Below are positions 34,972 through 53,963 of a stretch of 64,000 bases of DNA, one piece after another. Every line of letters starts with the position of its first letter. The first letter of the stretch is position 1. The DNA lies in contig JAGOLX010000029.1 of NCBI GenBank assembly GCA_017993835.1, positions 1 to 64,000 of the forward strand, given 5' to 3'. The translations under genes and the position numbers were made by a program. This DNA is from Phycisphaerae bacterium (lineage in GTDB: Bacteria; Planctomycetota; Phycisphaerae; Sedimentisphaerales; Anaerobacaceae). Under the pieces are notes generated by a model. It saw only the letters and a list, made by a program, of their open reading frames with translations. It did no database searches and was not told the DNA's origin.

Positions 34972-35150
34972 CGTAGCCTCCTTGCCTGTCTGTCTGCCGG
35001 ACCCGCAAGCGTTCCAGCCCATGGACCGGCGATGTCATCCTACACATCGAGACGGGGCTTGTACACTCTTTTGTGGAAGGACGCCGCCGCCACTGGATGA
35101 TTGTACTTGCGGCTTGGCGCACGGTGACGAGACATTGGCCCGACTTTGTC

Positions 35151-35171
35151 ATTCCTGCGTCAAGCAGGAAT
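35151..35171. repeat. dispersed palindrome, relative
   Basis: ATTCCTGCGTCAAGCAGGAAT, a 21-bp inverted repeat related to the element 38 bp downstream. Confidence 0.6.
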
Positions 35172-35208
35172 CCAGGAACCGTGAGGTTGGGGCCGTCCCC
35201 TGATGTGG

Positions 35209-35228
35209 ATTCCCGCTTCCGCGGGAAT
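35209..35228. repeat. dispersed palindrome, copy
   Basis: Identical to the 20-bp palindrome at 7948-7967 and 10209-10228, also followed by GAC. Confidence 0.75.
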
Positions 35229-35371
35229 GACAATCCACGGTCCTATTGGATCTCCATCGCATCCGTGCAGATACGGACATGCACCCGTCGCCACCAGCCA
35301 CCGTGTCTGTGCAAACTTGCGGGCGTCAGATTCCCTGCAATCTGGATTTGTTCTGTGCGAGGGCAGTCCGT

Positions 35372-35480
35372 TTGTAGTGACGCCGTAAGGCGTTATCCGT
35401 AGCATGGGCGTCCCGCCCATGATTCCGAACCACGGGCAGGATGCCCGTACTGCGATATGCCCTTACGAGCACTCTACAAG
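35372..35480. repeat. TTGTAGTG-type palindromic repeat, copy 3 with internal hairpins
   Basis: The ends, TTGTAGTGACGCCGTAAGG (35373) and CCTTACGAGCACTCTACAA (to 35479), are inverted. The interior has two hairpins: CATGGGCGTCCCGCCCATG and ACGGGCAGGATGCCCGT. Related elements are at 17097 and 29909. Confidence 0.7.
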
Positions 35481-35540
35481 CCGCTCGGTCGCAGTCCACA
35501 TGCAATCACCCAGCGTACGCGCCTGCCTTGCGGCGGGTCA

Positions 35541-37592: not shown

Positions 37593-37648
37593 TACCCCCA
37601 TGTCCTCCTGCATCCCTGAATGCGGGCGCGGACCCATCCACATAGGCT

Positions 37649-37657
37649 ATTATAGCA
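37649..37657 (-). promoter_or_regulatory. extended -10 promoter of the subtilase gene
   Basis: The minus strand reads TGCTATAAT, an extended -10 box. A -35-like TGACTT lies 16 nt before the TATAAT. The predicted start is near 37642, which makes the internal ATG at 37592 the natural translation start. Confidence 0.55.
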
Positions 37658-37728
37658 AAACGGAGTCGGCAAGTCACGCGCAAAGAGGGGAACGTCGTCT
37701 TAGCCAGCAGGGGCCATTGACCCTAAAC

Positions 37729-38907
37729 TCAGCCCTGATCGCAACTTACAGTCGGATCACGGTGGCCGTCGGCAGCGGCGATATTCAGAAGCACGCCCAC
37801 GGCAGCCGCCGAGAGCAACATGCTGGTGCCACCGGCGCTGACGAACGGCAGGGAAATACCCTTGGTGGGCCCCAGGTCGGTGACGACGGCTATGTTCATG
37901 GCCGCCTGGATGCCGATGGCCAGGACGATCCCCGCAGCCAGCAGACGCCCAAAGCGATCCCGGCATCGCATCACCGCTGCGATCCCCAGGAACAGGAAGA
38001 GAACGAACAGGGCGATCACGCCCAGGGTGCCGATCAGACCGAGTTCCTCCCCCACGATGGCGAAGATGAAGTCCGTCGTATCCTCCGGCACGTGGCCGTA
38101 CTTGCAGGTGCCCTGCCCGATCCCCTTGCCCCACAGGCCGCCGGAGCCGATGGCCACCAGCGACTGGTTGACCTGATAGACCGCATCGGGTACCCGCTCC
38201 GGGTGCAGGAAGGCCTCCAGTCTCTTGAGCCGGTGCGGCGACTGGAACAACGCCAGGACGAACCCCACCACCCCCACCGGAAGCAGGGTCAGCAGGTGCC
38301 ACCACTTGACGCCCGCGATGACGAGGAGAATGAGGCTCATCAGTCCGATGAACGCCGCGGTGCCAAAGTCTTCGATCACGACCAGACCACACACCAGACC
38401 GATCAGAGTACACAGCGGCAGGAATCGCGCCCAGTATCGTCGGATATCGGGACCCATCGCGGCGCAGGTCGCCGCCAGGAAGAAGATCACGATCCACTTG
38501 GCGAACTCAGACGGCTGGAAGCTCACGCTCGCCGGTCCCAGCGGGATTCGCAGCCACCGGGTGGCGCCGTACATCTCCGTGCCCACGACCAGGACGGCGC
38601 CGAGCAATCCAATTGCCAGGACGGACAGCCAGACCGTCGGGCACTTATACCAGCGCCCGCGCAGGCTCCAGATCCGGTAGTCGGGCAGCGATGCAGCGAA
38701 CAGGACCACCACTGCCATGGGGAAGAACATGATCTGCCGCAGGGCCGGGAAGTCATAGAACCGGCGCAGGTCGAATTCATACCCCAGACTGGCCCCGGCG
38801 GAGAACACCATCACCGCGCCGGTGGCCATCAGGAACAGGATCACCATGGCGATCACATTGGACAACCGGCTACGCACTGAACTCATAACATCATCTGCAA
38901 TCAGCAT
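37729..38907 (-). CDS. ftsW: septal peptidoglycan polymerase FtsW
   Basis: A 392-residue SEDS-family protein with about ten membrane segments. The family motifs are visible: SFQPSEFAKWIVIFFLA, VNQSLVAIGSGGLWGKGIGQG, HVPEDTTDFIFAIVGEELG and GISLPFVSAGGTSMLLS. Its neighbour murG places it as FtsW rather than RodA. It polymerises glycan strands at the division septum. The start at 38907 has GAGGAG with only a 3-nt gap to the ATG; an ATG at 38886 is possible but has no ribosome binding site. The subtilase lies between it and murG. Confidence 0.9.
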   Translation of the reverse strand: MLIADDVMSSVRSRLSNVIAMVILFLMATGAVMVFSAGASLGYEFDLRRFYDFPALRQIMFFPMAVVVLFAASLPDYRIWSLRGRWYKCPTVWLSVLAIGLLGAVLVVGTEMYGATRWLRIPLGPASVSFQPSEFAKWIVIFFLAATCAAMGPDIRRYWARFLPLCTLIGLVCGLVVIEDFGTAAFIGLMSLILLVIAGVKWWHLLTLLPVGVVGFVLALFQSPHRLKRLEAFLHPERVPDAVYQVNQSLVAIGSGGLWGKGIGQGTCKYGHVPEDTTDFIFAIVGEELGLIGTLGVIALFVLFLFLGIAAVMRCRDRFGRLLAAGIVLAIGIQAAMNIAVVTDLGPTKGISLPFVSAGGTSMLLSAAAVGVLLNIAAADGHRDPTVSCDQG

Positions 38908-39177
38908 TTACTCCTCACCCTACGGGACCCGGGAGAGTCCGGGAATATGTCCTTTGATCTGTTTTTTCGGCAGATTGGGCCATGGCTCTCCAGAAATAGT
39001 CCGCGTCCATCGGATCGAGCCGTCGGAAAGCCGCCATATCTGCATCCGATGATTCGGGAATTGTTCTTGACAACCCCTGTGATCTGGATCAGGCTATGGG
39101 CGAGTTTCATATGTGTGAGAGTCGTCCGTGCGGGTAACCCGCTGAGTCGTGTAATCAGTCTTACTGGAGGTCCGCTC

Positions 39178-40068
39178 ATGGAGAAATCACACTATCGTGG
39201 GATGGCGGCATGCCTGCTGTTGTCGGCTCTGCTGGCAAGCACGGCAGGGGCATACCAGCAACCACTGGTGAACCTCGGATTCACCAGCTTTGTTGATGGC
39301 GGCCCACCAGCCGGTCCCGGACTCTACTTCGCAGAGTACCTCATGTACTGGACAGCCGACGATCTGCCCGGCATAGATAGTCCGGAGGACGACTTCGAAG
39401 CGGTGGGCAGTCTGAGTCAGTTCCTGTATCAGTCGAACACGTCCGTACTCCTCGGCGGCAAGTGGGGTCTTGATGTCATCGTGCCAGTGGCCAGCTTCGA
39501 AACCGACCCGGTGACTAATAACGACGGCATCGGTGATCTGCTGGTCGGCCCCTACCTGCAATGGGATCCCGTCATGGGGGCAAACGGTCCGGTCTTCATG
39601 CATCGGATCGAGTTTCAGATGATCTTCCCCACAGGCAGCTACGACGAAGACAGGAATGTGAACCCGAGCAGCAATTTCTTCTCCTTCGATCCGTACTGGG
39701 CCGGGACTCTTTTCTTTGCCCCTCGCTGGAGCGTGTCTTGGCGTCTTCACTATCTCTGGAACGACGAGAATGATGACACCAAGATTCAGCCGGGCCAGGC
39801 CGTGCATGCCAACTTCGCCTGCTCGTACGAAGCGATTCCCAAACAGCTCCGAGTCGGCGTCAACGGCTACTTCTTCGAGCAGGTGACCGACACCGAACTG
39901 GACGGCGACGACTTCGATGACGACGAGAGTGTCTTCGCCGTAGGTCCCGGCGTCCTGTATAGCTTCTCGCAGGACACACACCTGTTCTTCAACGCGTATT
40001 TCGAAACAAGCGCGGACGATCGCCCCGAGGGCGAGAAGTTCATTCTGCGTTTCGTGCATCACTTCTAA
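39178..40068 (+). CDS. outer-membrane beta-barrel-like transporter (SphA/MetA-type)
   Basis: A 296-residue protein with a signal peptide (MAACLLLSALLASTAGA). The remaining sequence alternates beta-strands with aromatic residues (GLYFAEYLMYWTADD; WRLHYLWNDENDDTKIQPG) and ends in FVHHF, a terminal aromatic pattern of outer-membrane barrels. It resembles the SphA/phenol-degradation MetA family, whose substrates vary. GGAGG at 39166-39170 sets the start. It is followed by a strong hairpin at 40083-40157. Confidence 0.65.
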   Translation: MEKSHYRGMAACLLLSALLASTAGAYQQPLVNLGFTSFVDGGPPAGPGLYFAEYLMYWTADDLPGIDSPEDDFEAVGSLSQFLYQSNTSVLLGGKWGLDVIVPVASFETDPVTNNDGIGDLLVGPYLQWDPVMGANGPVFMHRIEFQMIFPTGSYDEDRNVNPSSNFFSFDPYWAGTLFFAPRWSVSWRLHYLWNDENDDTKIQPGQAVHANFACSYEAIPKQLRVGVNGYFFEQVTDTELDGDDFDDDESVFAVGPGVLYSFSQDTHLFFNAYFETSADDRPEGEKFILRFVHHF

Positions 40069-40082
40069 TCGTGATTCATCAC

Positions 40083-40157
40083 CCACCGGGGACAGGAGAC
40101 CCCCGTCCGGCGATCTCGCCGACGAGCGACGGGCATCCTGTCCCCGGTGGCATTTTC
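40083..40157 (+). terminator. terminator-like hairpin after the barrel gene
   Basis: CCACCGGGGACAGGA (40083-40097) is perfectly complementary to TCCTGTCCCCGGTGG (40136-40150), and the loop holds further stems. TTTT follows at 40153-40156. The T tract is short. Confidence 0.55.
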
Positions 40158-40222
40158 TCCGCATCCCTCTGTCCGGGGGGATTTCGCTGTTTCTCTGGAC
40201 GATTCCCGCTTTTTCCGCGCAC

Positions 40223-40251
40223 TTGGCCCGCCCTCGCTGCATCTGTACTAT
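40223..40251 (+). promoter_or_regulatory. putative promoter of the first ECF operon
   Basis: TTGGCC (40223-40228), 17-nt spacer, TACTAT (40246-40251). The predicted start near 40258 gives a ~36-nt leader to the TTG start. It is a sigma-70 type, so basal expression need not depend on the ECF factor itself. Confidence 0.5.
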
Positions 40252-40293
40252 GATGGCATCGGCCGACAGGCAGGCCTTGCAAGGTGAGCGGAT

Positions 40294-40833
40294 TTGGAAT
40301 CGATAGCGGAAGAACGAGTTGTGGAAGCCGCCCGTCGCGGCGACGTGGAGTCCTTCGCGGCACTCTACCGGCGCTACTACGCGATGATGGTCTGGCTCGC
40401 CTACTCGATCCTGCTCAATCGCGACCAGGCACAGGACGCCGCCCAGCAAACGTTCGTCAAGGCCTGCGAGAACCTCGCGGATCTCAAACGAACGGACCGC
40501 TTTGGCCCCTGGCTCGCGGCGATCTGCCGCAACGAGGCCCACCAGCTCATTCGGGCACGCCGGCAGCCCGTCGGACCACATACCGGAGAGGACTTGTACG
40601 CGGAGCAGATCGATCACGACAGCGACGACCACCGCTTGGTCCGAACCGCCATCGATCAGCTCGAACCGGTGTATCGCGAGATCGTCGTCCTGCACTACTA
40701 CAACGACATGGAGTACCGCCAAATCGCGGCGGCGCTCGGCATTGCCGAGCACACGGTGCGGGGACGGCTCTTTCGCGCCCGACGTCAGATTGAGAAGACC
40801 CTCAGAAAGAAGGGCTTTCCTGAAGGATCATAG
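40294..40833 (+). CDS. ECF-family RNA polymerase sigma factor
   Basis: A 179-residue sigma factor. Region 2 (RYYAMMVWLAYSILLNRDQAQDAAQQTFVKA) binds the -10 and region 4 (LEPVYREIVVLHYYNDMEYRQIAAALGIAEHTVRGRLFRARRQI) binds the -35. A TTG start at 40294 is indicated, with AAGGTG upstream. The stop is two nt before the ATG of the next gene, so the two are translationally coupled. The partner lies where an anti-sigma factor is usual. Targets are unknown. Confidence 0.9.
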   Translation: MESIAEERVVEAARRGDVESFAALYRRYYAMMVWLAYSILLNRDQAQDAAQQTFVKACENLADLKRTDRFGPWLAAICRNEAHQLIRARRQPVGPHTGEDLYAEQIDHDSDDHRLVRTAIDQLEPVYREIVVLHYYNDMEYRQIAAALGIAEHTVRGRLFRARRQIEKTLRKKGFPEGS

Positions 40834-40835
40834 TC

Positions 40836-43265
40836 ATGGCACGCTCCAGAAGGGCCGACTGGCTCGATCAGATCATCCGTGAAGTAAAGCCCGGGCAGAC
40901 GCCAAGGGCTGATTTCGACGCATGGCGCGACGCTCACGCCGGCGCGATCAGGCGACTGCGACAGCGAGGAGCGACGATCCCGCGGGGTGAGCCCTTCCTG
41001 GCGTTGATCTCTCGGCTCGCTCGGAACACCGTGCGAAGCCCGGCAGGCAAACTGGCTATGGCGGCAGCCATCGTCGCGGGGGCCTTCATCCTGTTGACCT
41101 GGTGCACTGGTCGCCAGTCGCCCCCTGCCACTCCACCGACGACGGCGACAGACCAGGCAACATCCCCCAGGCCCGAGGTCCTTGATCCCGAGCAAGAGGA
41201 ACTGCGTCTGGCGGATGACCTGTTCACGAAGGGAGACGTCCAAGGGCTGCTGGCGCTCCTGCATTCCACTCGGGCGCAGACCGTCTTCACGGTCGTTTCC
41301 TATCTCGGCCAGATTGGCGATCCCTCATCAGTCGCCACAATCCAGGCGCTGGCCGCCCAGTGGCAGGGTCCATCGCAGGACAACCCGTTCCAGAGAGCAA
41401 TCGATCAAATCCGCCGCGGGAATCGGCAAGACGAAGCGGAATCGACCCAGAACTCGCGGGCTCCCGCGGGCGTTCTCCAAACCACGCAGGAGCCGGAACC
41501 ATCGCCGAGCGAGATACCACCGCTGACCTGCCGCGGCGTGGTCGCGGACAGGAGCGGCTCGCCAATCCGCGGCGCGGAGGTATGGGCACAAAGCTGCACG
41601 GACGATCTGAAGCTGACGGACCTCACAACCCCAGTCCCGACCGATCCGCTAGGGAAGTTCAGCCTGACCGTACCGACCGGCGACACCGACACAACCGACC
41701 GCGTGTACCTGCTGTGCAGGCACAGCAATCACGCCCTCGGCTGGCTTCGCCTGCCCACGGACGGCCAGACAGCAGACGTCAACGATTGCAGGATCATCTT
41801 GTATCGGCCGACCTTCGTCGCCGGCATCGTCACCGACACGCGAGGCCGGGGTGTCCCCGATGCGCTCGTGGAGGCTCGAATGGTGCCTGCCCACGAGCCC
41901 ACCAGCGTCCAGGAGTATCCCTGCACCGCCGGCAACGAGCGAGCGGTCAAGACCGACACGACAGGCCGATTCATCCTCAAGGATGTCCCCGAGAACAGCC
42001 TGTTGAGTCTGTCCGTATCACGACGGGGCTACGGCCTCTACGATTCCCGCGAGGGCTATGGGCAATTCATGGGCACATCCCCCTATCTCGATCCCGAGTC
42101 CCACACCCTCCGCGCAGGGCGAAGGGACATCGAGATCAAGCTGCTGCCCGCGGAAGGACAGATCTATGTGCAAGTCGTCCGGGAACAGGGTGGTCTCTAT
42201 GATGGTCCGGTGATTCTGCGATGCGAGAGTCCGGGCAATGGCCTCGGTCCCTGGTTCTGTCGTTACGACGGCGGGGATTGCACCTTGATGGAGCCGGCGC
42301 AACGGGGCATCTGTTCCCCGCAGGGCCAGGGACGATTCAGGATCGACGACTTGCCGGTCGGGCGATATCTTATCGCCGCAGCGGACCCCCTGTCCGGGGA
42401 TCTCATCACCCCTCCCAGCGAGGTGTTGATCCGCCCATCGCAACTTCGCGCCCAAGTCACTCTCAGAGCTGCGAGGACCGCCCAAGTGACGGTCCGCGCG
42501 AGAACACCGACGGGCGAGCCGGTCGGCAATCTCCTCCTCACGGCAGGATCGGGATTCATGGTTCGCAAGCGCACCAATGCCGACGGCCTGTGCGTCTTTC
42601 GTCTCTTCGAAGGAGACTCTGCCATTCAGGCGCACGGCTGGGACCGCGATTCCGCAGGACACGTCGTTCGAGTGACGCCGGACCTGGCAGACCGCCAGAT
42701 CGACTGGCCCGTGGGAACGCCGTTCTTGCTTCGTGGCCGACTCGTGGACGAGTCCGGCTCGCCCGTGCGCGGGTCCGTCAGCCTGCTCCTGCATGGATGG
42801 GTCTCGACGGACGCCGACGGTCGTTTCGTCATTCCCCACAAAGCCCCAGATGCCCTCCTTCAGGGATACGCCAGAGACGCAGAGGGCAAGCGCGCCCTCA
42901 TATTCGCAGGAATGCCCCCGTCAGCAGGAGGGGAACCGGAGGTTCGTCTGGAACGCGTCGCGGTCTTCACAGGAAGGGTCCTGGATCAGCACAGCAATCC
43001 GATCGTCGAGGCGCCCGTGGCATTCTCCCTGGACGTGCAGGACGTCGATTCGACTGGCTATCGGTATTCGCAGTTACGCTGCGAAGTGTTTCTCTCCGAC
43101 GGCCGATTCCGACTGGATGTGCCGGTCGGCCGGCCCTTGCGTATGGATATGTACTGCCCCGCTCTGCAATTGAAAGGAAGGGCCGAGCCCATCGACCCCG
43201 CGCCGGGTCAGACCTACGACTTGGGCGACATAGCGCTCGAGCCGGCGCCCTCTCAGAATCCATGA
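40836..43265 (+). CDS. membrane protein with carboxypeptidase-regulatory-like repeats, coupled to ECF factor
   Basis: An 809-residue protein. The first ~70 residues are cytoplasmic and basic, a membrane helix follows at about 70-92 (GKLAMAAAIVAGAFILLTW), and the rest is outside. After a short helical repeat (about 130-180) come at least five carboxypeptidase-regulatory-like beta-sandwiches, starting at about residues 230 (CRGVVADRSGSPIRGAEVWA), 326 (VAGIVTDTRGRGVPDALVEA), 550 (VTVRARTPTGEPVGNLLLTA), 629 (LRGRLVDESGSPVRGSVSLL) and 708 (FTGRVLDQHSNPIVEAPVAF). The coupling to the ECF gene suggests an anti-sigma or signalling role for its cytoplasmic part, with the repeats as an external sensor. 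No zinc-binding anti-sigma motif is seen, so this is inference. Confidence 0.75.
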   Translation: MARSRRADWLDQIIREVKPGQTPRADFDAWRDAHAGAIRRLRQRGATIPRGEPFLALISRLARNTVRSPAGKLAMAAAIVAGAFILLTWCTGRQSPPATPPTTATDQATSPRPEVLDPEQEELRLADDLFTKGDVQGLLALLHSTRAQTVFTVVSYLGQIGDPSSVATIQALAAQWQGPSQDNPFQRAIDQIRRGNRQDEAESTQNSRAPAGVLQTTQEPEPSPSEIPPLTCRGVVADRSGSPIRGAEVWAQSCTDDLKLTDLTTPVPTDPLGKFSLTVPTGDTDTTDRVYLLCRHSNHALGWLRLPTDGQTADVNDCRIILYRPTFVAGIVTDTRGRGVPDALVEARMVPAHEPTSVQEYPCTAGNERAVKTDTTGRFILKDVPENSLLSLSVSRRGYGLYDSREGYGQFMGTSPYLDPESHTLRAGRRDIEIKLLPAEGQIYVQVVREQGGLYDGPVILRCESPGNGLGPWFCRYDGGDCTLMEPAQRGICSPQGQGRFRIDDLPVGRYLIAAADPLSGDLITPPSEVLIRPSQLRAQVTLRAARTAQVTVRARTPTGEPVGNLLLTAGSGFMVRKRTNADGLCVFRLFEGDSAIQAHGWDRDSAGHVVRVTPDLADRQIDWPVGTPFLLRGRLVDESGSPVRGSVSLLLHGWVSTDADGRFVIPHKAPDALLQGYARDAEGKRALIFAGMPPSAGGEPEVRLERVAVFTGRVLDQHSNPIVEAPVAFSLDVQDVDSTGYRYSQLRCEVFLSDGRFRLDVPVGRPLRMDMYCPALQLKGRAEPIDPAPGQTYDLGDIALEPAPSQNP

Positions 43266-43280
43266 ACCGGATGGAATGGA

Positions 43281-45470
43281 CTACTCCCACCACAGCCGCG
43301 GGTAGTCCTGCCCTTCGGTGATCCACCAGATGTCGTCGGTCCCATTGGCGGTCTCGTTCGCGAAGTCCCAGCCGGCGTCGAGGAACGTGCTCGCGGTCTG
43401 CATCTCGGTGGTCGTCTTGCCCTCGCCGGCGGCACTCGTGGTCCAGCCCGAAGTCTCGATGTCCCAGAAACTCGACGCGATACTGCCCACCACGCTGTTG
43501 TGGCCTGCGAAACCGCCCACGAGGTCCACGCCGTCCACGGCGCCGCGGCTGTAGCTCGTCGCGACGCTCCCTTCGTTACAGCCTACAAAACCGCCGACAT
43601 GGTCCGGCCCGTTGACCACGCCGCTGCTGTGGCTCGTCGTGATGCGGCCGGAGTTGTAGCCCACCAGACCGCCCACGTAACTACCGGTCCCGTCGGTTCC
43701 AGCGGTGCTGTAGCTGGCGCGAATGTCCCCATCGTTGCAGCCCGCGAGACCGCCGACGTGGGCACCCCCATGAACAGTGCCGGCGCTATAGCTCTCGGCG
43801 ATCTTGCCGTAACTGCGACCTGTAAGGCCGCCGGCATAGACACTGGTCCCATCGACCGCACCCGTCGCGTGGCTGGTCTCGATACCGCCATCGTTCTCGC
43901 CGACGAGCCCTCCGACGAGCGAATCCCCCGCAACCGCTCCGGAGCAGAAGCTCGCTGCGATTCTGCCTGCGTGGCGACCCACGAGACCGCCGACATAACT
44001 GGCGGTTCCATTGACTTCCACCGCTTCCAGACCCAGGTTGGAGATCACGGCGTCGGGCGAGGATTGCCCGAACAGACCCAGGTAGCCGTTGCCTTCGACG
44101 TGGAGATTGCGGATGACGCAGTCATTGCCGTCGAAGGTCCCACCGAACCAGGGCACGACCGCTCTGTGCCATGCAATCCCCGACAGGTCGATGGACGCTT
44201 CCAGACGGTAGTGCGCCTCCGGCTCGAACCACACGACGCCCAGATCGTCCGCATCGCGAATCAGATAGGGCTCCTGGGCGGTGCCCGCGCCCTCGGGCAT
44301 CAACGGACCGACGCCGGCATGGCAGCACAACTCGGGATACCCGCCCGCCGACATCTGCCAGTAATCGCAGGTTCCGTTGGCAATCTCATCCGTGAAGTCC
44401 CATCCTGCGGCCAGGAAGGTCGAGAGATCCTGCATCTGGGCCGTCGAGACGCCCGTGCCGGCGACACTGGAGGCCTGTCCAGAACTCTCAGCATCCCAGA
44501 AACAGCCAATGACCCCCTCCGGTCTGAGATTCGATCCCACCAGCCCGCCGAAGGTTGATTCGCCGGCGACGGCACCTGCGCTGTAGCAGTCGGTCACGTA
44601 GCCGGCCCAGTTCTGCCCGAGCAGGCCGCCGATGTGCATACCTCCACGGACGGCACCGACGGTGTAGCAGCAACTGACGATGCTTTCGTAGCTGCGTCCG
44701 ACCAGCCCGCCGACGTAACCGTCCCCGCTGACGGCGCCGGTGCCGTAGCTCGCAGTGACGCTGCCGCCACACAGGTAGCCGATCAGACCACCGACGGAGT
44801 TGCCGGTGGCCGAGACGGTCGCGGTGCTGTAGCAGCGGACCATCCTGCCGTCGACGCTGGCGCCCACGAGTCCGCCGACCTCATTGTCCCCGGCGACCGC
44901 GCCGGCGCCGTGGCATTCGGTCACGGGACCGGGGCTCTCCCCTGCCAGGCCGCCGACAAAGTCTCTGCCGGCAACGACGCCGAGGCAGTAACATCGGATC
45001 AAGCGGCCCTCGTTGGACCCCACCAGACCGCCGACGTAGCAGCCTGAACCCATGATATTGGCACCGACGATCCCCACATTCCGCACGGTGCCCGAGGGGG
45101 CGATGGATCCGAACAGTCCAACATCCCCTGTGCCCTCAATCGTCAAATTCGAGATGGTGTGGCCGGCGCCGTCGAAGACGCCGGCGAAGCCGGACCCGCG
45201 CGAAAGCGGTGCGATGACCGCGTCATGGAAGACCTTGCCGCCGGGCAAGCTGGAGTCCAGGTCGATATCGACGACCAGGACGAAGTGCTTGTCGAACAGG
45301 GCCCGCTCCGAACCGATGGAGCAGAGCTGCTCGGCGGTCGCGATCTGATACGGATCGTCGGCCGTGCCCGTGCCGCCGGCGAATTCCGCCGCCGCCAGCA
45401 CACCGGTCAACAGAAACAAGGGAAGAACACCGACAACACACTTCGTCCGCACACTCGGTTGAGCAAGCAT
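43281..45470 (-). CDS. GLUG-repeat secreted protein 1
   Basis: A 729-residue protein with a signal peptide (TKCVVGVLPLFLLTGVLAAAE). Then FAGGTGTADDPYQIATAEQL, the start of a GLUG-type beta-helix, and a series of GGLVGSNEG... and SYSxGxV repeats. A second half starts at MPEGAGTAQEPYLIRDADDL and repeats the pattern, each half ending in a WDF-E-ANGT segment. No enzymatic motif. AGGAG is 8 nt before the ATG. It is the last gene of a four-gene tandem array and ends 15 nt from the convergent gene at 43265. Such proteins are thought to be adhesins or surface-exposed binding proteins. Confidence 0.85.
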   Translation of the reverse strand: MLAQPSVRTKCVVGVLPLFLLTGVLAAAEFAGGTGTADDPYQIATAEQLCSIGSERALFDKHFVLVVDIDLDSSLPGGKVFHDAVIAPLSRGSGFAGVFDGAGHTISNLTIEGTGDVGLFGSIAPSGTVRNVGIVGANIMGSGCYVGGLVGSNEGRLIRCYCLGVVAGRDFVGGLAGESPGPVTECHGAGAVAGDNEVGGLVGASVDGRMVRCYSTATVSATGNSVGGLIGYLCGGSVTASYGTGAVSGDGYVGGLVGRSYESIVSCCYTVGAVRGGMHIGGLLGQNWAGYVTDCYSAGAVAGESTFGGLVGSNLRPEGVIGCFWDAESSGQASSVAGTGVSTAQMQDLSTFLAAGWDFTDEIANGTCDYWQMSAGGYPELCCHAGVGPLMPEGAGTAQEPYLIRDADDLGVVWFEPEAHYRLEASIDLSGIAWHRAVVPWFGGTFDGNDCVIRNLHVEGNGYLGLFGQSSPDAVISNLGLEAVEVNGTASYVGGLVGRHAGRIAASFCSGAVAGDSLVGGLVGENDGGIETSHATGAVDGTSVYAGGLTGRSYGKIAESYSAGTVHGGAHVGGLAGCNDGDIRASYSTAGTDGTGSYVGGLVGYNSGRITTSHSSGVVNGPDHVGGFVGCNEGSVATSYSRGAVDGVDLVGGFAGHNSVVGSIASSFWDIETSGWTTSAAGEGKTTTEMQTASTFLDAGWDFANETANGTDDIWWITEGQDYPRLWWE

Positions 45471-45505
45471 AGTTATCTCTCCTATACGAATCCAAGTTAA
45501 CACAA
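45471..45505 (-). other. 35-nt spacer between GLUG genes 2 and 1
   Basis: 35 nt, the same length as the other spacers. It shares the TCTCTCCTATACGA ribosome-binding-site part, but the rest has diverged. Confidence 0.7.
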
Positions 45506-46651
45506 TCACTCGTTGCAGTCAATCCCTTCCCACTGCAGGCGCGGGTAGTCCTTGCCCTCGCAGATCGTCCAGGTGCTCTCGAAATCCCATCCGACGAAGG
45601 TCTTCTTTTGATACATCTGGGACGTCAAAAGCCCCTCGCCTCCGTCACTGACGGAAACCCCGCTGACCTCGGTATCCCAGAACGAGTTGCCCACAGCGTC
45701 CCCAACGACGCGGCCTCCTGTGTAGAAGCGCGGCGATCCAACACCGATCAGGCCACCCCAATCCTCGCTTTCACTGCCAGTCCACAGGACCGTTGCGGCA
45801 TAGCAGTTGACAATCACTCCCCCTCTGTTGTGTCCGACCAGTCCGCCTGAGTAAGGGCTATAGTGGGTCAATATGGTGCCTTGAGCATAACAGTCCGTGA
45901 TCACGCCCTCGACGTTGTTGCCCACAAATCCACCGAGGTAATCACTACCTGTCAGCGAAACTGCTGCGTGGCAACTAGCGATTCTGCCCCCCAGATTCGT
46001 TCCCGCAAAACCACCAAGGCTTCCGCCCTTACTGTCACCCCAGACGTCTGTGTATGCGGATGACCAGAGGATCCTGCCCGCGTTGAGGCCGACCAAGCCA
46101 CCGAGGCTTTCGATGGAAGGTCGTGTCCCCACGCGTATGTTGCCCCTGACGTGACAGCCGCGGATGCCACCCCCGCTACTGCCCGCCAACCCACCCACTT
46201 TGTAGTGTGCTCCGGTAATCGAGACGTTCTCCAATACGAGGTCCTCCACACTCCCACCATCACCAATGCACCCGAACAGTCCGACATAGTGGCCCGCTGT
46301 GCTCTCGATGGTCAGATTCTTGATCCTGTGACTATTCCCGTCGAAGTAGCCGGTGAAAGGCGTACCCTGAAAACCGAAAGCGTCGTCCGTGTCACCGGCG
46401 ATCACCGCGCGAACGAACACCACCCGGCCGGGGAGATTGGGGTCCAGGTCGATGTCGGCGATCAAGACAAAGTGTTTGGCTAGCAGATCAGGGTCCGAAC
46501 CGATGGAGCAGAGTTGCTCAACCGTCCCGATCTGGTATGGATCGCCGGGCATGCCCGTGCCGCCGGCGAACTGGGCCGCCGGCAGCACGTTGGCCAGCAG
46601 GAAGAAGACGAATAGACAGGCAGTACTTCGCACGCCCGTTTGCGTCGTCAT
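45506..46651 (-). CDS. GLUG-repeat secreted protein 2 (short)
   Basis: A 381-residue paralogue of the neighbouring proteins, with signal peptide (ACLFVFFLLANVLPAAQ), FAGGTGMPGDPYQIGTVEQL and GLUG repeats (VGGLAGSSGGGIRGC; YLGGFVGNNVEGVITDCYAQG). It has only one repeat block, about half the length of the other three, and the same EGKDYPRLQWE end. Its spacer from gene 3 is 35 nt. The short form could be an ancestral unit or a truncation. Confidence 0.85.
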   Translation of the reverse strand: MTTQTGVRSTACLFVFFLLANVLPAAQFAGGTGMPGDPYQIGTVEQLCSIGSDPDLLAKHFVLIADIDLDPNLPGRVVFVRAVIAGDTDDAFGFQGTPFTGYFDGNSHRIKNLTIESTAGHYVGLFGCIGDGGSVEDLVLENVSITGAHYKVGGLAGSSGGGIRGCHVRGNIRVGTRPSIESLGGLVGLNAGRILWSSAYTDVWGDSKGGSLGGFAGTNLGGRIASCHAAVSLTGSDYLGGFVGNNVEGVITDCYAQGTILTHYSPYSGGLVGHNRGGVIVNCYAATVLWTGSESEDWGGLIGVGSPRFYTGGRVVGDAVGNSFWDTEVSGVSVSDGGEGLLTSQMYQKKTFVGWDFESTWTICEGKDYPRLQWEGIDCNE

Positions 46652-46686
46652 GATCGTCTCTCCTATGCGAGTAGAGTCGTGGAAGA
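46652..46686 (-). repeat. conserved 35-nt spacer between GLUG genes 3 and 2
   Basis: 35 nt, identical at 31 of 35 positions to the 49015-49049 spacer. It contains the AGGAG site on the minus strand. Confidence 0.8.
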
Positions 46687-49014
46687 TCACATCTGATTGC
46701 AGTCAACTGCCTCCCACTGTAGACGCGGATAGTCCTTGCCCTCGCAGATGAACCATGTGCTTGCGAAATCCCAGCCGGCGTCGAGGAACGTGGCGGCCGT
46801 CTGCATCTGGGCGGTCGTCCTGCCCGTGCCGACCGAACTCGTCGTCTGGCCCGAGGTTTCGGTGTCCCAGAAGCAGCCGACAATGACGTCCCCGAGGTTG
46901 CCCGTCGAGTTGTCATGGCCCACGAAGCCGCCGACGGATTCGCTGCCGCTGACAGCGCCGGCGCTATAGCACGTGACGATGCTGCCCAACACCTTGATGC
47001 CCCCAAGAGTGCTGATGTTGTAACCTATGAAACCCCCGACCTTGTTCTTCCCGCGGACCACGGCGTGGCTGGCACTGGCGGTGACGCGACCGTCGTTCCG
47101 GCCGATCAGGCCACCGACGGAGATATCCCCGGTGACCGTGCCGGCACTGTAGCTCGTGGCGATGTCACTCGTGTTGTAGCCCGCCAGACCACCGACCAGT
47201 TCGTCGCCGTTGACTGTGCCGTTGTTGTAGCTCGATGCGACACTCTTGGAGTTCCAGCCTGCCAGGCCGCCGACGTGGTCGGGTCCCAGGATCGGGCCGA
47301 GGTTGTGGCTCCCGGCGATACTGCCGGAATTGTAGCCCGCGATGCCGCCGACGTAGCTGCCGATTCCGGAGGTCACGGCGGCGTTGTCGCTCCCAGCGAT
47401 GTCCCCCTCGTCGTTGCAGCCCGCCAGACCGCCGACGTAGGCGTCGCCATTGACGGCGCCGTCGCTGTGACTTTCAGCAATACTGCCGAAGTTGCAGCCC
47501 ACGAGCCCACCGGTGTACGAACCGATCCCATTGACCCCGCTGCTGGCATTGCTTGTCTCGATGACGCCACGGTTGACACCGACGAGGCCGCCGACGTAGG
47601 AATCCGCCATGAGGGACCCCGAGCAGGAACTCATATAAATCCTGCCGCCGTGGCAGCCCACGAGGCCGCCGACATAGCTGGCGGTTCCATTGATGTTCAC
47701 CGTTTCCAGACGCAGATTCGAGAGCACGGCGTCGGGCGAGGATTCCCCGAACAGACCCACGTAACTCACGCCTTTGATACGGAGATTGCTGATAGCATGG
47801 CCATTGCCATCGAAGGTCCCATCGAACCAGGGAACGACAGCCATGGTCCAGGTGATCCCCGACAGATCGACGGATGCCTCCAAGCGGTAGTGAGCCGCGG
47901 GCTTGAGCCACACGGCGCCCAAGTCGTCTGCATCGCGAATCAGATAGGGCTGCTCGGCTGTGCCCAACCCTTCCGGCATCACCAGGTCATCGCTCGCATA
48001 GCAGCGTAGCTGGGGGTACTCGCCCGCCGCCATCTGCCAGGCGTCGCTGACGCCGTTGGCGGTTTCTCCGACGAAATCCCACCCGGCGGCCAGAAAAGTC
48101 AAGCGGTCTTGCATCCGAGCGGTCGTCTTGCCTGTGCCCCCGGCACTGGCGACCTGTCGCGAGGTCTCGGTGTCCCAGAAACAGCCCACGACGACTGACG
48201 ACGACCATCCCCGGTCGATGCTCGAACCTACCAGCCCGCCAGAGCCAAAGACGGTGCCGGTACTGTAGCAATGGATCACACAGCCGTTCCGATTCACACC
48301 GATCAGCCCGCCGACGTAGCCGGCGCCGCTGACGACGCCGGTGCTATAGCAGCGGGTCACGTAGCCGTCCCGGTTCTGGCCGATCAGCCCGCCAACGGCG
48401 TTCCCGGTGCCAGTTGTCGCCGCACGGCTGTAGCAGAGGATCACGCGACCTGTATCATTCAGTCCTATCACTCCGCCGACAAAGCCATGGTCTTTGCCGG
48501 CAACCTGGCCGGTACTGTGGCATTTGACCATAGCGCCCAGATTGGCCCCGGCCACCGCACCAACGCCGTAGCCAGAACCGGCGATATCGGCATCCTCCAC
48601 GCCCACGTTCCTGACGACGCCGGAGTTCTGGCCAAAGAGCCCAAGGTAGCATGCACCCCGAATCCTGAGGTTCGAGATCGTGTAGTCGCTCCCGTCGAAG
48701 ACACCAGAGAAGGCCGCACCCTGGTAGCCCTCCGTGATCGGATCGCCATCCGGCGCGACAACCGCCCGGTCGAATACCTTGCCGCCGGGCAGGTTGGGGT
48801 CCAGGTCGATGTCGGCAGTCAGCACAAAGTGCCTGTCCAGCAGATTCGGGTCTGAGCCGATCGAGCAGAGTTGCTCGGCCGTGGCGATCCGGTACGGATC
48901 GTTCGGCTCGCCTGTGCCGCCGGCGAACTGGGCTGCCGCCAGCACGTTGGCCAGCAGGAAGAAAGCGAATAGGCAAACAGCAGATCGCATTTGCAGGCCC
49001 ATTTGCGTCGTCAT
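46687..49014 (-). CDS. GLUG-repeat secreted protein 3
   Basis: A 775-residue paralogue with signal peptide (SAVCLFAFFLLANVLAAAQ), FAGGTGEPNDPYRIATAEQL and two GLUG blocks. The second block starts at MPEGLGTAEQPYLIRDADDL. The end is WFICEGKDYPRLQWEAVDCN, almost as in genes 2 and 4. AGGAG lies 8-9 nt before the ATG. It is followed, 35 nt on, by gene 2. Confidence 0.85.
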   Translation of the reverse strand: MTTQMGLQMRSAVCLFAFFLLANVLAAAQFAGGTGEPNDPYRIATAEQLCSIGSDPNLLDRHFVLTADIDLDPNLPGGKVFDRAVVAPDGDPITEGYQGAAFSGVFDGSDYTISNLRIRGACYLGLFGQNSGVVRNVGVEDADIAGSGYGVGAVAGANLGAMVKCHSTGQVAGKDHGFVGGVIGLNDTGRVILCYSRAATTGTGNAVGGLIGQNRDGYVTRCYSTGVVSGAGYVGGLIGVNRNGCVIHCYSTGTVFGSGGLVGSSIDRGWSSSVVVGCFWDTETSRQVASAGGTGKTTARMQDRLTFLAAGWDFVGETANGVSDAWQMAAGEYPQLRCYASDDLVMPEGLGTAEQPYLIRDADDLGAVWLKPAAHYRLEASVDLSGITWTMAVVPWFDGTFDGNGHAISNLRIKGVSYVGLFGESSPDAVLSNLRLETVNINGTASYVGGLVGCHGGRIYMSSCSGSLMADSYVGGLVGVNRGVIETSNASSGVNGIGSYTGGLVGCNFGSIAESHSDGAVNGDAYVGGLAGCNDEGDIAGSDNAAVTSGIGSYVGGIAGYNSGSIAGSHNLGPILGPDHVGGLAGWNSKSVASSYNNGTVNGDELVGGLAGYNTSDIATSYSAGTVTGDISVGGLIGRNDGRVTASASHAVVRGKNKVGGFIGYNISTLGGIKVLGSIVTCYSAGAVSGSESVGGFVGHDNSTGNLGDVIVGCFWDTETSGQTTSSVGTGRTTAQMQTAATFLDAGWDFASTWFICEGKDYPRLQWEAVDCNQM

Positions 49015-49049
49015 GATCGTTTCTCCTATACGAGCAGAGTCGCGGAAGA
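49015..49049 (-). repeat. conserved 35-nt spacer between GLUG genes 4 and 3
   Basis: 35 nt, 31 of 35 identical to 46652-46686, with the same ribosome binding site and upstream GAGCAGAGTCGCGG-type block. Confidence 0.8.
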
Positions 49050-51455
49050 TCACAACCGATTGCAGTCGATTGCTTCCCACTGCAGGCGCGGATAGTCCCT
49101 GCCCTCGCAGATCGACCAAGTGTCCATGAGATCCCAGCCGGCGTCGAGGAACGTGGCGGCCGTTTGCATCTCGGCCGTCGTCTTGTCCGTGCCCACGGCA
49201 CTTGCGGCTTGGCCCGAGGTTTCGATGTCCCAGAAGCTGCTGGTGACGCCCTGTGGACCGCCGGCACCTGCCAGGCCCCCCACGAGGTTCTTGCCGCTGA
49301 CGAAACCCGTACTGTAGCTCGCGGTGATAATGCCAAAGACGTTGATATCCAGGACAGCGTACTCGTTGCAGCCCACGAGCCCCCCCACTTCGTCATTCCC
49401 GCCGGCCGCACCTGTGCTGTAGCTTGCGCTAACGCTGCCGTCGTTCCGCCCCGCCAGACCGCCGACGCGACGATCCCCTGTGACGGTCCCGGTGCTGCAA
49501 CTCGTGGAGATGTCGCCACTGTTGTGGCCTGCGAGGCCGCCCACAAGCTGCCTGCCGAGAACCGTGCTGCGGCTGTAGCTTGTAGCGATGTTCCCCGCAT
49601 TGTCGCCCACAAGGCCGCCGGTGTAGCTCCCTCCGACGACCGCCCCCACGCTGTGGCTGCCTCCGATGCTGCCGGAGTGGTAGCCCACCAAGCCGCCGAC
49701 ACAGGTGCTGCTTCCGTCGACCGAAGCGGTGCTGTAGCTGTCGCGGATGTCTCCCTCGCGGTCACACCGGCCCACAAGACCGCCGACGCGACCAAGAGCT
49801 GTGACACCGCCGGCGCTGTGGCTCGTGGCCACACTACCGAAGTTGGTGCCCACGAGGCCGCCCACTTCTTCTCCCTCGGCATCAACGGTACCGCTGGCCT
49901 GACTGGCGGTGATGCTGCCCTCGTTGCTGCCCGCGAGCCCTCCCACGTGCCATGCGCCGGCAATCGTGCCCGTGCTGGAACTTGAGGCGATGCCACCCCG
50001 ATTGTAGCCTGCAAGGGCGCCCACATGGTCACCGGAGCCGTGGATATCCACCGTCTCCAGGCCGAGGTTGAAGATGGCCGCCTCGGGGCCGGACTCTCCA
50101 AACAGGCCCAGATAGCTGTTGCCCTCGATGTGGAGATTGCCAATGACGTGACCGTTGCCGTCGAAGCCTCCCGCAAACCAGGGTACCACGGCTACCGACC
50201 ACGTAATCCCGGACAAGTCGATGGAGTTCTCCAGGCGATAGTGCGCCTGCGGCTCGAACCACACGACGCCCAGGTCGTTCGCGTCGCGAATCAGATAGGG
50301 TTCCTCCGCCGTGCCCGATCCGTCCGGCATCACGGGCGTCACTCCATCGTGCCAGTACAACCGAGGGTACGCTTCGGCGGGCATCCACCAGTAACCACAG
50401 GCGCCGTTGCGAACCTCATCGACGAAATCCCACCCGGCCGCCAGGAAGGTTTCGATATCATGCATCTGAGCGGTCGTCCTGCCCGTGCCGGCCTCGCTCG
50501 TGGGCTGCCCCGAACTCTCGGTGTCCCAGAAACAGCCGTAGACGACTCCTCGCGTCCGCCCCGCACTGGAATTCCAACCGATCAGCCCGCCGACATCGGA
50601 TTCGCTCGTGACCAGACCGGTGCTGTAGCACTGAATCACGGAGCCGCTCTGATGATTGAATCCGATCAACCCTGCTACGCATGTGGAACCCATAACGGCA
50701 CCGGTGGCACAGCAGTGAACCACATTGCCGTCCTCGTTGGTCCCCACCGCTCCCCCAACATAGCATTGCCCGCAGACGGAACCGGCACTGCAACTCAGGA
50801 GAATGCGGCCCGCGGCGTTCTGGCCGGCCAGTCCGCCGGCAGATTCCCCCAGGGCGGTGATCTTGACATCGCTCCGGCAGCGGATCATCCGACCCATCAT
50901 GACTCTTCCAATCACTCCGCCCACGCGGCTCCCGCCGACGACGGCGCCGGAACAGTAGCATTCCGTCACAGTGCCTGAGCTACACCCAACCAGAGCGCCG
51001 ATGCTGTCGCCCGAGCCCGAGATTCGCACATCCGCTATGCCCAGGTTCCTGACCGTGCCCGAGTTTCGGCCGAAAAGCCCGAGGTAACTCCCCCCCTGCA
51101 TCGTGAGATTCCGGATGACGTGCCCGCTGCCGTCAAAGACGCCGGAAAACGGGGCATTCTGAAGATATTGCGGATCGGTCTCGTCGGGCCTCGGAGCGAT
51201 GACCGCCTCTGCAAAGACCTCGCCGCCGGGCAGGTTTGGGTCCAGGTCGATGACGGCGATCAAGACAAAGTGTTTGTCCAACAGGTTTGGGTCCGAGCCG
51301 ATGGAGCAGAGCTGCTCGGCGGTCGCAATCTGGTAGGGATCGTTCGGCTCACCCGTGCCTCCGGCGAACTGGGCCGCCGGCAGCACGTTGGCCAGCAGGA
51401 AGAAAGCGAATAGACAGGCAACACACCGTTGTCGCACACTCATTTGCGTCGTCAT
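49050..51455 (-). CDS. GLUG-repeat secreted protein 4
   Basis: An 801-residue paralogue, the first gene of the array. Signal peptide CVACLFAFFLLANVLPAAQ, FAGGTGEPNDPYQIATAEQL and two GLUG blocks, the second starting at MPDGSGTAEEPYLIRDANDL. The end is WSICEGRDYPRLQWEAIDCN. TAGGAG upstream of the ATG. The gene is divergent from the ECF sigma factor at 51677. Upstream of the gene there is no convincing sigma-70 promoter, whereas most genes in the window have one. Confidence 0.85.
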   Translation of the reverse strand: MTTQMSVRQRCVACLFAFFLLANVLPAAQFAGGTGEPNDPYQIATAEQLCSIGSDPNLLDKHFVLIAVIDLDPNLPGGEVFAEAVIAPRPDETDPQYLQNAPFSGVFDGSGHVIRNLTMQGGSYLGLFGRNSGTVRNLGIADVRISGSGDSIGALVGCSSGTVTECYCSGAVVGGSRVGGVIGRVMMGRMIRCRSDVKITALGESAGGLAGQNAAGRILLSCSAGSVCGQCYVGGAVGTNEDGNVVHCCATGAVMGSTCVAGLIGFNHQSGSVIQCYSTGLVTSESDVGGLIGWNSSAGRTRGVVYGCFWDTESSGQPTSEAGTGRTTAQMHDIETFLAAGWDFVDEVRNGACGYWWMPAEAYPRLYWHDGVTPVMPDGSGTAEEPYLIRDANDLGVVWFEPQAHYRLENSIDLSGITWSVAVVPWFAGGFDGNGHVIGNLHIEGNSYLGLFGESGPEAAIFNLGLETVDIHGSGDHVGALAGYNRGGIASSSSTGTIAGAWHVGGLAGSNEGSITASQASGTVDAEGEEVGGLVGTNFGSVATSHSAGGVTALGRVGGLVGRCDREGDIRDSYSTASVDGSSTCVGGLVGYHSGSIGGSHSVGAVVGGSYTGGLVGDNAGNIATSYSRSTVLGRQLVGGLAGHNSGDISTSCSTGTVTGDRRVGGLAGRNDGSVSASYSTGAAGGNDEVGGLVGCNEYAVLDINVFGIITASYSTGFVSGKNLVGGLAGAGGPQGVTSSFWDIETSGQAASAVGTDKTTAEMQTAATFLDAGWDLMDTWSICEGRDYPRLQWEAIDCNRL

Positions 51456-51676
51456 GGTCGTTTCTCCTATACATGAAGTCGGCAGACGTGCCGATTCGTC
51501 ACGATGACTTGCTTCTGGATCACCTTTGGGCTGGCCATTCCGCGCGTCTGTTCTGTAAAACATGTCCAGGTCAGGCCGGCGATGTTACGTTCTTTCTGTG
51601 CATTTCTTTAGAAAATCGCCTCCTCAGAGTGTAACGTTGACCAGGGGACTTGGACTCAATGTGGTGAGTTGACAAC
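51456..51676. other. intergenic region between the GLUG array and the second ECF gene
   Basis: About 220 bp between divergent genes. No ORF or RNA is seen. I looked for -35/-10 pairs toward both genes and found none with both boxes and a 15-19-nt spacer. TTCTTTAGAA-type AT-rich stretch at about 51605-51615. It is the likely regulatory region of the block. Confidence 0.5.
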
Positions 51677-52513
51677 ATGGATACGGAAAACGGCTTCGTT
51701 CAGTTGGTTCGCCAGGCGCAGCTTGGAGATCGCGTCAGCCTGGACCGCCTTGCGGAGGGGGCGAGACAGCGTCTGTACGCGTACATCTACCGGCTGACGC
51801 TCAACCACGACCTGGCCCAGGACCTTTTGCAGGACACTCTCCTCAAGATGGTCGAGAGCATCAAGGAATTGGAGCACCCGGAGCGATTCTGGAATTGGCT
51901 GTTCCGCACGGCACTGGGCAACGTCCAGCATTACTATCGGGACATCGCGAGGGAACAGGAAGTCGAGTTCTCCTCGGCCAGCCACAGACGCCTGTCCCAG
52001 TACCTCGGTGAGGACCACGAGGACGGGCTCAACCGCGCCATGCGCAAAGAACTCTCCGAGACGATCGTCGATGCGATGGCGCGGTTGCGGCTGACCTACC
52101 GCAATGTCCTGATGCTGCGGTGCTTCGAGCAGATGTCGTTCGCGGAAATCGGCGAGACGATGGGTTGCAAGGAGCTGCGGGCGCGGGTGCTGTTCTTCAG
52201 GGCCCGGCACTCGCTGAGCCGGCAGCTATCCCGGCGGGGGCTCGGCAAGGGTCTGCTGGTCACGGCCCTGGGCATCTTCGGGCTGCTGACCGCCCCCGCC
52301 GAGGGCGCCCCGGCGGGCACCGTCACCGCGGCATCCCTGAACGTCGGTCTGGTCGCCACGATCGTCGGCCATGCGGGAACTCCCTCGGGCATCGCGGTCG
52401 TGGTAACGGTCGCCGGCTTCACCCTCACGCTCACGATGGAGCACTTCCTCGTTTTTTCTCTCTTCTTTGCCCTGGCCGTGGTCACGGTGATCGTCGGTCT
52501 TGTTTGGAATTGA
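51677..52513 (+). CDS. ECF sigma factor with C-terminal transmembrane extension
   Basis: A 278-residue protein. Residues about 1-185 are a complete ECF sigma factor: region 2 (YAYIYRLTLNHDLAQDLLQDTLLKMVE) and region 4 (ARLRLTYRNVLMLRCFEQMSFAEIGETMGCKELRARVLFFRARHSL). The extension holds a hydrophobic stretch at about 193-208, then segments at about 237-254 and 257-278 (FLVFSLFFALAVVTVIVGLVW). This tethers the sigma factor to the membrane, perhaps as a built-in anti-sigma. It lies divergent to the GLUG array and convergent with the esterase gene, whose stop is 4 nt away. No clear ribosome binding site. Confidence 0.85.
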   Translation: MDTENGFVQLVRQAQLGDRVSLDRLAEGARQRLYAYIYRLTLNHDLAQDLLQDTLLKMVESIKELEHPERFWNWLFRTALGNVQHYYRDIAREQEVEFSSASHRRLSQYLGEDHEDGLNRAMRKELSETIVDAMARLRLTYRNVLMLRCFEQMSFAEIGETMGCKELRARVLFFRARHSLSRQLSRRGLGKGLLVTALGIFGLLTAPAEGAPAGTVTAASLNVGLVATIVGHAGTPSGIAVVVTVAGFTLTLTMEHFLVFSLFFALAVVTVIVGLVWN

Positions 52514-52517
52514 CCGC

Positions 52518-53924
52518 TCAGGGCAGGACAGCCCGGTCGTAGATGCGAATGTCGTCGATCAGGCCGGACCAGAAGGCGCCGGGCTCGAGGTTCTTGCCGG
52601 CGCCGATGTTGAAACCGCCGGTCGAGGACTTCAAGGCGCCGAGTTTTCGCGCGGTGTCGGCCGCGACCTCCCGACCGTCCACATACAGCCGGCGATAGGA
52701 CCCGTCCCAGACGAACCGGACAAGGTGCCATGCGCCGTCGGTGACACTGGTCTGCGAGACCAGCGGCGCCGCGCCCCTGCTGACGTCGATCAAATTCGTG
52801 AGCAGAGCGCCGGTCGAGGCCTCCGTGCCGAGCCAGACCTCGCCGGGGCCGGGCTGATTGGACTGCGAGAGAATCGCCTGGCCGGGCTGTCCCCCTTTGA
52901 CCCAGGCAAAGACGGTGAACGGGCCGTCGGCAGGGTTTAGGACAGCACCCGTGCGGATGCAATCGTCGACGCCGTCCAGCTCGATAGCGCCGCGGATCTT
53001 GCCGTCGGCGGGTCGCCAGAGGGGGGAGCCATACACGGTCCAGCCGAATTGCCCGAGCGTGTCGGAGGCCAGATCGCCTTCGCTCTCGTCGAACTTCCAG
53101 TGGGCGACCATGCGAGGATACTTCATCCAATAGGCTGCCAGCCCACCCAGGTCCGGATAGCCGACGACCCCGTCGCCGGCGGGCGGCGGCGCCACGTCCA
53201 GCGAGGGCTCCGCGTCGAGCCATCGCATCGCGAGCAGGGCAAAATCCCGCAGGTTCAGGACGCCGTCATGATCGTAGTCGGGAAGGAACGTCACCCCCAG
53301 CAAAAACGGGGCGATCGTCTCGGCGATGATCCCGGCCCCCTCGGTATTCGGATGGATGTAGTCGGGGAACAGAGCGGCATGGGGCAGCAAGGCCGTGTAC
53401 AGATCGATCACCGGGACGCCCTTCTCCTGCGAAATCCGGTCGATCAGTGGCAGGATCTCGTCGCGAATCACGTCGGGTCGGATCGTGAAGTTCACTGCGA
53501 ACGCCGGCACGGGTTTGCAGATCCAAACCACCGGCTTGCTCGGCAGGGCTCGGAACACATCGATCATGTTGCTGTAGTCGGTGACAAAATCGTCTTTGTA
53601 CTGCCAGTTCTGCGGTTTGGAGTCGTTCGTCCCCAGCTTGATGACAACGACGTCCGGGTTGCACGTGCGGGCGTCGGTATACGCGGTCTGCGTGATGTAC
53701 GGCTTGTCCCCCCGGCGCAGGAGAGTCGCGCCGCTGACGCCGAAGTTGCGGACCTCCCAGGCCGCGTCGTACTGCTGCAGGATACCCTGTAGTTGCTTGG
53801 GATAGGTGACGATGCCCGCGCCATAGGTGATGCTGTCCCCCACGCAGGCGACGAGTTTCGCCTGAACCGTCGCTCCCCATCCCCACGCGACTAACACGGC
53901 GAGAATCACAGCTCTGGCCTTCAT
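52518..53924 (-). CDS. secreted SGNH esterase with dockerin-like and LamG modules
   Basis: A 468-residue protein. After the signal peptide (AVILAVLVAWGWGATVQA), SGNH-hydrolase blocks are seen: CVGDSITYG with the nucleophile Ser, IKLGTNDSKP and PDYIHPNTEG with the Asp/His pair. At about 215-260 comes a dockerin-like calcium-binding pair: DYDHDGVLNLRDFALLAMRWL and GDGVVGYPDLGGLAAYWM. The C-terminal ~180 residues are LamG (VAHWKFDESEGDLASD; WSGLIDDIRIYDRAVL). It may deacetylate polysaccharide. It lies 39 nt after lpxL-type gene, so possibly cotranscribed. Confidence 0.85.
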   Translation of the reverse strand: MKARAVILAVLVAWGWGATVQAKLVACVGDSITYGAGIVTYPKQLQGILQQYDAAWEVRNFGVSGATLLRRGDKPYITQTAYTDARTCNPDVVVIKLGTNDSKPQNWQYKDDFVTDYSNMIDVFRALPSKPVVWICKPVPAFAVNFTIRPDVIRDEILPLIDRISQEKGVPVIDLYTALLPHAALFPDYIHPNTEGAGIIAETIAPFLLGVTFLPDYDHDGVLNLRDFALLAMRWLDAEPSLDVAPPPAGDGVVGYPDLGGLAAYWMKYPRMVAHWKFDESEGDLASDTLGQFGWTVYGSPLWRPADGKIRGAIELDGVDDCIRTGAVLNPADGPFTVFAWVKGGQPGQAILSQSNQPGPGEVWLGTEASTGALLTNLIDVSRGAAPLVSQTSVTDGAWHLVRFVWDGSYRRLYVDGREVAADTARKLGALKSSTGGFNIGAGKNLEPGAFWSGLIDDIRIYDRAVLP

Positions 53925-53963
53925 GTTTCCGCTCCCATCAAAGAGACTCTGTATGCTCTTCCG

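Follow-up and report, generated by a model that had tools for sequence, protein, structure and literature searches.

The four GLUG-repeat protein genes of the window (the whole stretch of 64,000 nucleotides analysed here, on contig C101 of a Phycisphaerae source genome, G000, of 6.37 Mb in 115 contigs) are probably controlled by ECF2, the sigma factor encoded divergently from them. At a probability of roughly 0.78, we propose that ECF2 is membrane-anchored and autoregulated, and that it drives its own gene and the GLUG operon from back-to-back promoters. At the sequence level, two conserved promoter-like sites are evident, of which the divergent one is missing where no GLUG gene is seen nearby. 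In the proposed mechanism, ECF2 would be held at the membrane by its C-terminal tail, and an envelope signal would free or uncover the sigma domains, either because the protein is released by proteolysis or because the tail changes conformation; we infer a membrane sensor function for the tail. Active ECF2 would then guide RNA polymerase to TGTAAC-N16-GGACTC ahead of its own gene and to CGTAAC-N16-GGACAT ahead of the GLUG operon, presumably by binding both sites itself, as established ECF biology suggests (PMC8103513, PMC8999054). Because ECF2 would direct both promoters, the sigma factor and the four-gene surface-protein operon would be turned on at the same time, and a positive feedback loop would result.

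Layout of the locus and features of ECF2

The genes named in the initial annotation were all found at the positions it gave, and its ECF, GLUG and membrane-segment assignments were confirmed with Pfam and hydropathy analysis (Table 1). ECF2 and GLUG1 are divergent, with 221 bp between them, ECF2 lying on the plus strand and the array on the minus strand. At the other end of the array, the ECF1 partner gene and GLUG4 are convergent, with stops at 43265 and 43281. All four array proteins match the Glug motif PF07581 above its curated cut-off (50-88 bits versus 20.5), and paralogues and repeats were detected for GLUG1. The most likely GLUG starts, judged from the DNA, are internal ATGs at 51455, 49014, 46651 and 45470 preceded by AGGAG, rather than the longest-ORF starts; the first two were read directly, and the last two were deduced from the repeated AGGAG-ATG unit. 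With these starts the intergenic gaps in the array are constant at 35 nt, a pattern that fits an operon made by tandem duplication. The GDSL/LamG gene on the far side of ECF2 is not thought to be an ECF2 target. Elsewhere in the window (2994-3269), adjacent tRNA-Ala and tRNA-Ile genes on the minus strand resemble an rRNA operon spacer.

Table 1. Coordinates of genes and predicted promoters at the ECF/GLUG locus (window numbering)
Feature	Coordinates	Strand	Basis or remark
ECF1, ECF sigma factor, 179 aa	40294..40833	+	Pfam Sigma70_r4_2 E 2e-17, Sigma70_r2
ECF1 partner, putative membrane anti-sigma factor/sensor, 809 aa	40836..43265	+	PF13620 E 3e-21
GLUG4, secreted GLUG-repeat protein	43281..45470	-	PF07581 E 3e-18; start inferred from repeated SD-ATG unit
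GLUG3, short secreted GLUG-repeat protein	45506..46651	-	PF07581 E 3e-13; start inferred from repeated SD-ATG unit
GLUG2, secreted GLUG-repeat protein	46687..49014	-	PF07581 E 3e-20; SD AGGAG ahead of ATG 49014
GLUG1, secreted GLUG-repeat protein, array's first gene	49050..51455	-	PF07581 E 1e-25; SD AGGAG ahead of ATG 51455
Predicted ECF2-type promoter of GLUG array, CGTAAC-N16-GGACAT	51562..51589	-	3/20 mismatches to genus ECF2-promoter consensus
Predicted autoregulatory ECF2 promoter, TGTAAC-N16-GGACTC	51630..51657	+	conserved in 6/6 genus members, 25/25 short-type family loci
ECF2, ECF sigma factor, C-terminal membrane segment, 278 aa	51677..52513	+	Sigma70_r2, r4_2
GDSL hydrolase/LamG protein	52518..53924	-	PF13472, PF13385; tail-to-tail with ECF2, conserved neighbour in genus

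The only Pfam domains of ECF2 are PF04542 and PF08281/PF04545, that is, sigma2 and sigma4 with no sigma3, and by this content it is an ECF (group IV) sigma factor. Among the NCBIfam models listed, the superfamily model TIGR02937 is the only one whose cut-off ECF2 passes. The best Foldseek matches are AlgU, SigmaE and SigW, with E values of about 1e-5 to 1e-4. In the AF2 model the sigma2 and sigma4 helices are confident; the tail is modelled with a confidence too low to interpret and its predicted structure was set aside. This C-terminal tail, of some 90 aa, contains one strong hydrophobic segment (residues 258-276), and hydropathy thus indicates a probable membrane-spanning extension. In an alignment of 26 family members both the tail sequence and its hydrophobic segment are conserved in nearly all, and nearly all full-length members have a hydropathy peak of about 2.3-3.4 near the C-terminus. 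A Pfam search of the extension found neither a zinc-finger (ZAS) anti-sigma domain nor a carbohydrate-binding domain. ECF2 has no co-transcribed anti-sigma gene, the downstream GDSL gene being separated by 4 nt and encoded on the other strand.

Predicted divergent promoter elements and their conservation

An alignment of the ECF2 upstream regions from six genus members revealed an invariant block, TGTAAC..GGACyTGGACT, about 20-47 nt ahead of the gene. On the opposite strand, ahead of GLUG1, the sequence CGTAACATCGCCGGCCTGACCTGGACAT has the same elements with the same spacing as the ECF2 promoter TGTAAC-(N16)-GGACT. The GLUG side was scored with a 20-position genus consensus built from the ECF2 promoters alone. 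The GLUG-facing site has 3/20 mismatches to this consensus in the source genome, where 20,000 shuffles of the region produced no match as good, and 4/20 mismatches in the relative G004, again with no shuffle in 20,000 as good. The divergent side in G005, G006 and G001 has 8-10 mismatches, which is the chance expectation. The exact pattern GTAAC-N11-GACYTGGAC, a short form picked after the GLUG site had been seen, occurs eight times in nine genus genomes, each time in an ECF2 intergenic region, and not at all in three genus genomes that have no ECF2. It should be noted that the GLUG site is weaker with a family-wide matrix (p = 0.008) than with the genus consensus.

The genes surrounding this site were then compared between genus members. 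The initial annotation had proposed a search for the same block in relatives, and G004 has the same layout, split over two contig ends: LpxL, GDSL and ECF2 lie divergently from a GLUG gene at one contig end, and the ECF1 partner, ECF1, MetA and FtsW lie at another. Outside the window, GLUG1 has its closest match (56%) in the GLUG gene of G004, so that the G004 array is orthologous. GDSL adjoins ECF2 in G004, G005 and G006, and in the last two there is no GLUG neighbour; in G001, ECF2 and LpxL occur together and no GLUG gene is found in the mere 265 bp of contig upstream of ECF2, too short a stretch to prove its absence. The loss of neighbourhood that the annotation had named as evidence against its proposal is thus seen in some relatives. 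However, the divergent site is missing in exactly these three, which argues for a link between ECF2 and GLUG and not against it. In a tree of LpxL, MetA, FtsW and MurG, G004 groups with G001 and G006, G005 and G000 fall outside, and G004 and G000 are not sisters. From this placement the block was probably ancestral to G000, G001, G004, G005 and G006 and lost twice, or else it was transferred. In G002, G003 and G007 a MetA-like porin gene lies directly beside GDSL-LpxL with no block genes between (L108, L110, L114); compared with window positions 38947-55010, this junction is an apparent empty site for the ECF1-GLUG-ECF2 block.

Beyond the genus, an ECF2 relative is present in 38 of 89 family genomes. 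The sequence [TC]GTAAC-N15/16-GGAC was found 38-52 nt before the start in 25/25 short-type ECF2 loci from 12 genera; before scoring, we excluded a truncated locus, the long-fusion type, and G079 and G009b, in which no site was clear. At the sequence level all 25 loci have a -35 containing AAC ahead of their own gene. The -10 is GGAC in all 25 sites and differs from the CGT(C) that is usual for ECF promoters (PMC8103513), so that the classical CGT hallmark is absent. A second, divergent copy was found 87-176 nt from the ECF2 start in 16/25 loci (p <= 0.01 with a leave-one-out matrix, most p values being at the floor of 0.005). The divergent genes at these paired-site loci mostly encode secreted proteins: GLUG proteins in G000 and G004, GLUG and subtilase in G059, a beta-helix protein in G069, a beta-helix protein together with a PQQ propeller in G049, a beta-helix-like ORF and then a PQQ propeller in G062, PMP-type (PMP-like) repeats in G024, TSP3/LamG in G044 and a PQQ propeller in G045. 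Three species belonging to a single genus have a sodium:solute symporter gene in the divergent position, so that not every target would be a surface protein. The frame of the divergent gene is broken in G023, and no readable target was found at the divergent site in G002, G011 and G046. The G002 site (L072:8109-8133) is kept ahead of repeat-like DNA in which no gene was recognisable; it was therefore discounted as the promoter of a protein-coding target and is perhaps the remnant of a lost one.

In genome-wide pattern searches, sites outside ECF2 loci were not in excess over a reversed-pattern control, and exact sites there were at or below chance. The strong ECF2 regulon thus appears small, and a larger one was set aside. 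One candidate second target stays: CGTAAC-N16-GGACTA at L179:807-834 on contig C84 of the source genome, some 200 nt ahead of a 372-aa ORF with a signal-like N-terminal region, possibly a secreted protein. The source genome also has ECF2 paralogues with long C-terminal fusions (on C63, C75, C31 and C1); none directly adjoins a GLUG gene, and GTAAC-N16-GGAC was not seen upstream of them. Long-type ECF2 relatives of about 637 aa (L171, L172, L173) have upstream GTAAC followed by CGTCTA, not GGACTA, which is a different -10 in a sister group.

ECF1 and other explanations for the arrangement

The initial annotation suggested that the array is under ECF control and that the two ECF factors bracketing it may form one system. 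Matching, conserved divergent promoters speak for such control in the case of ECF2. For a single bracketing system no support was found: the motif upstream of ECF1 is a different one, the gene converges on the array, and its product is a member of an ordinary family of ECF factors with one-TM partners. The partner gene starts about 2-3 nt after ECF1. Its product has a short N-terminal region, a hydrophobic stretch (LAMAAAIVAGAFILLTW) after about 70 residues and then CarboxypepD_reg domains, which is the layout of an adjacent single-TM partner with a cytoplasmic N-terminal domain; other ECF1-like loci have the same. No Pfam or NCBIfam anti-sigma domain matched the partner, and its N-terminal region is marked only by a conserved motif ahead of the TM, WLDxxLx..PxFDxxxWxxxH, common to ECF1-like partners (40836-41100; L094-L101, L008, L099), which is possibly an undescribed anti-sigma domain. 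ECF1 and its partner look like a separate, ordinary ECF/anti-sigma pair. Tandem runs of ECF genes a few kb apart were seen elsewhere in the source genome (C49:88.6-99.8 kb, C99:7.1-17.3 kb, C91:31.0-41.7 kb), several of the genes having one-TM partners.

That ECF1, once released from its membrane partner, regulates the GLUG array, alone or with ECF2, is unlikely. Within the genus the only ECF1 orthologue (72%) and the only relative of the partner are in G004, so that the pair is confined to the two species that have GLUG beside ECF2. This co-occurrence, the one sequence-level hint of a possible role of ECF1 in GLUG control, is also explained if the block was gained or lost whole. The upstream element of ECF1-like genes, CGCGC/TGCGC.yAyT (10/14), is unlike that of ECF2; ECF1 of G000 and G004 has a conserved variant of it, CGCGCACTT, and the strict form has no occurrence in the window. 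The position of ECF1 at the array's 3' end is a further point against such a role. Because its upstream motif differs, ECF1 was set aside as the array's regulator.

It is improbable that the GTAAC-N16-GGAC sites serve a third factor, either another ECF or a DNA-binding regulator, with control over ECF2 as well as the array. The source genome has about 95 Sigma70_r4_2 matches from which such a factor might come, and binding by ECF2 itself is deduced. However, the site tracks ECF2 orthologues through 12 genera and varied neighbourhoods, is missing from genus members without ECF2, and occurs beyond ECF2 loci in exact form at or below chance; autoregulation, moreover, is the usual behaviour of ECF sigma factors (PMC8103513).

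Both GLUG and ECF genes are abundant, and a purely coincidental neighbourhood with a constitutive array would agree with the several relatives that have ECF2 without GLUG neighbours and with the genome-wide distribution in G000, where only 2 of about 18 GLUG loci lie within 5 kb of an ECF gene (about 3 expected), yet the promoter match, the correlated absence of the divergent site and the recurrence of both the divergent arrangement and the site in other genera make it very improbable. Since GLUG genes show no enrichment around ECF genes, we gave no weight to adjacency by itself; what points to ECF2 is the promoter sequences and their conservation, not proximity. The reported absence of a sigma-70 promoter before the array holds true, yet it says little and was likewise set aside: chance would give 2.1 consensus matches in 40000-54100, where there were none, and 3.2 in 20001-40000, where there were six.

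Relation to known ECF systems and significance

Extensions of the ECF2 kind have precedents. ECF48, ECF52 and ECF53 of Actinobacteria (e.g. SCO4117) and ECF243 IutY of Pseudomonas putida have C-terminal extensions with one or more transmembrane helices; regulation in cis by the extension, via proteolytic release, has been shown for IutY and proposed for ECF48, ECF52 and ECF53 (PMC8999054). Like these, ECF2 has an ECF core and a C-terminal extension with a predicted transmembrane helix; unlike them, it has a short tail (about 90 aa) with hardly any extracytoplasmic part and no zinc-finger or carbohydrate-binding domain, and it comes from another phylum and has another promoter. With the RpoE-RseA type (PMC8103513) ECF2 shares the sigma2-sigma4 composition, the AAC-containing -35, a spacer of about 16 and a promoter ahead of its own gene, but it differs in its -10, GGAC[TA] rather than CGT(C), and in having no co-transcribed anti-sigma gene; it is ECF1 with its partner that fits the two-gene layout of this type. 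The planctomycete ECFs with extensions (ECF57 and others, PMC8999054; ECF87-89, with N-terminal extensions, PMC8103513) are of the same phylum as ECF2, and in all of them regulation is expected to run through an additional domain that the sigma factor carries. ECF2 was compared with these groups by their published descriptions, TIGR02937 alone passing among the NCBIfam models listed.

A literature search that covered few subscription journals yielded no paper on planctomycete GLUG proteins or on an arrangement of the ECF2 type. Planctomycete genomes are rich in ECF sigma factors and in large secreted repeat proteins. We consider the chances about even that ECF2 represents an undescribed group, by comparison with the descriptions of known ECF groups: tail-anchored, self-contained switches with their own membrane sensor, which would recognise GTAAC-N15/16-GGAC and control essentially two divergent promoters, their own and that of an exchangeable surface-protein cassette. 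If this is true, the cassette (GLUG, beta-helix, subtilase, lectin-like or propeller) varies between genera while the promoter pair stays. A motif that accompanies one sigma factor through 12 genera would make an "unknown ECF" a regulator that can be tested and whose targets can be named, and the divergent GTAAC-N16-GGAC pair would provide a cheap rule for finding surface-protein cassettes under the same control.
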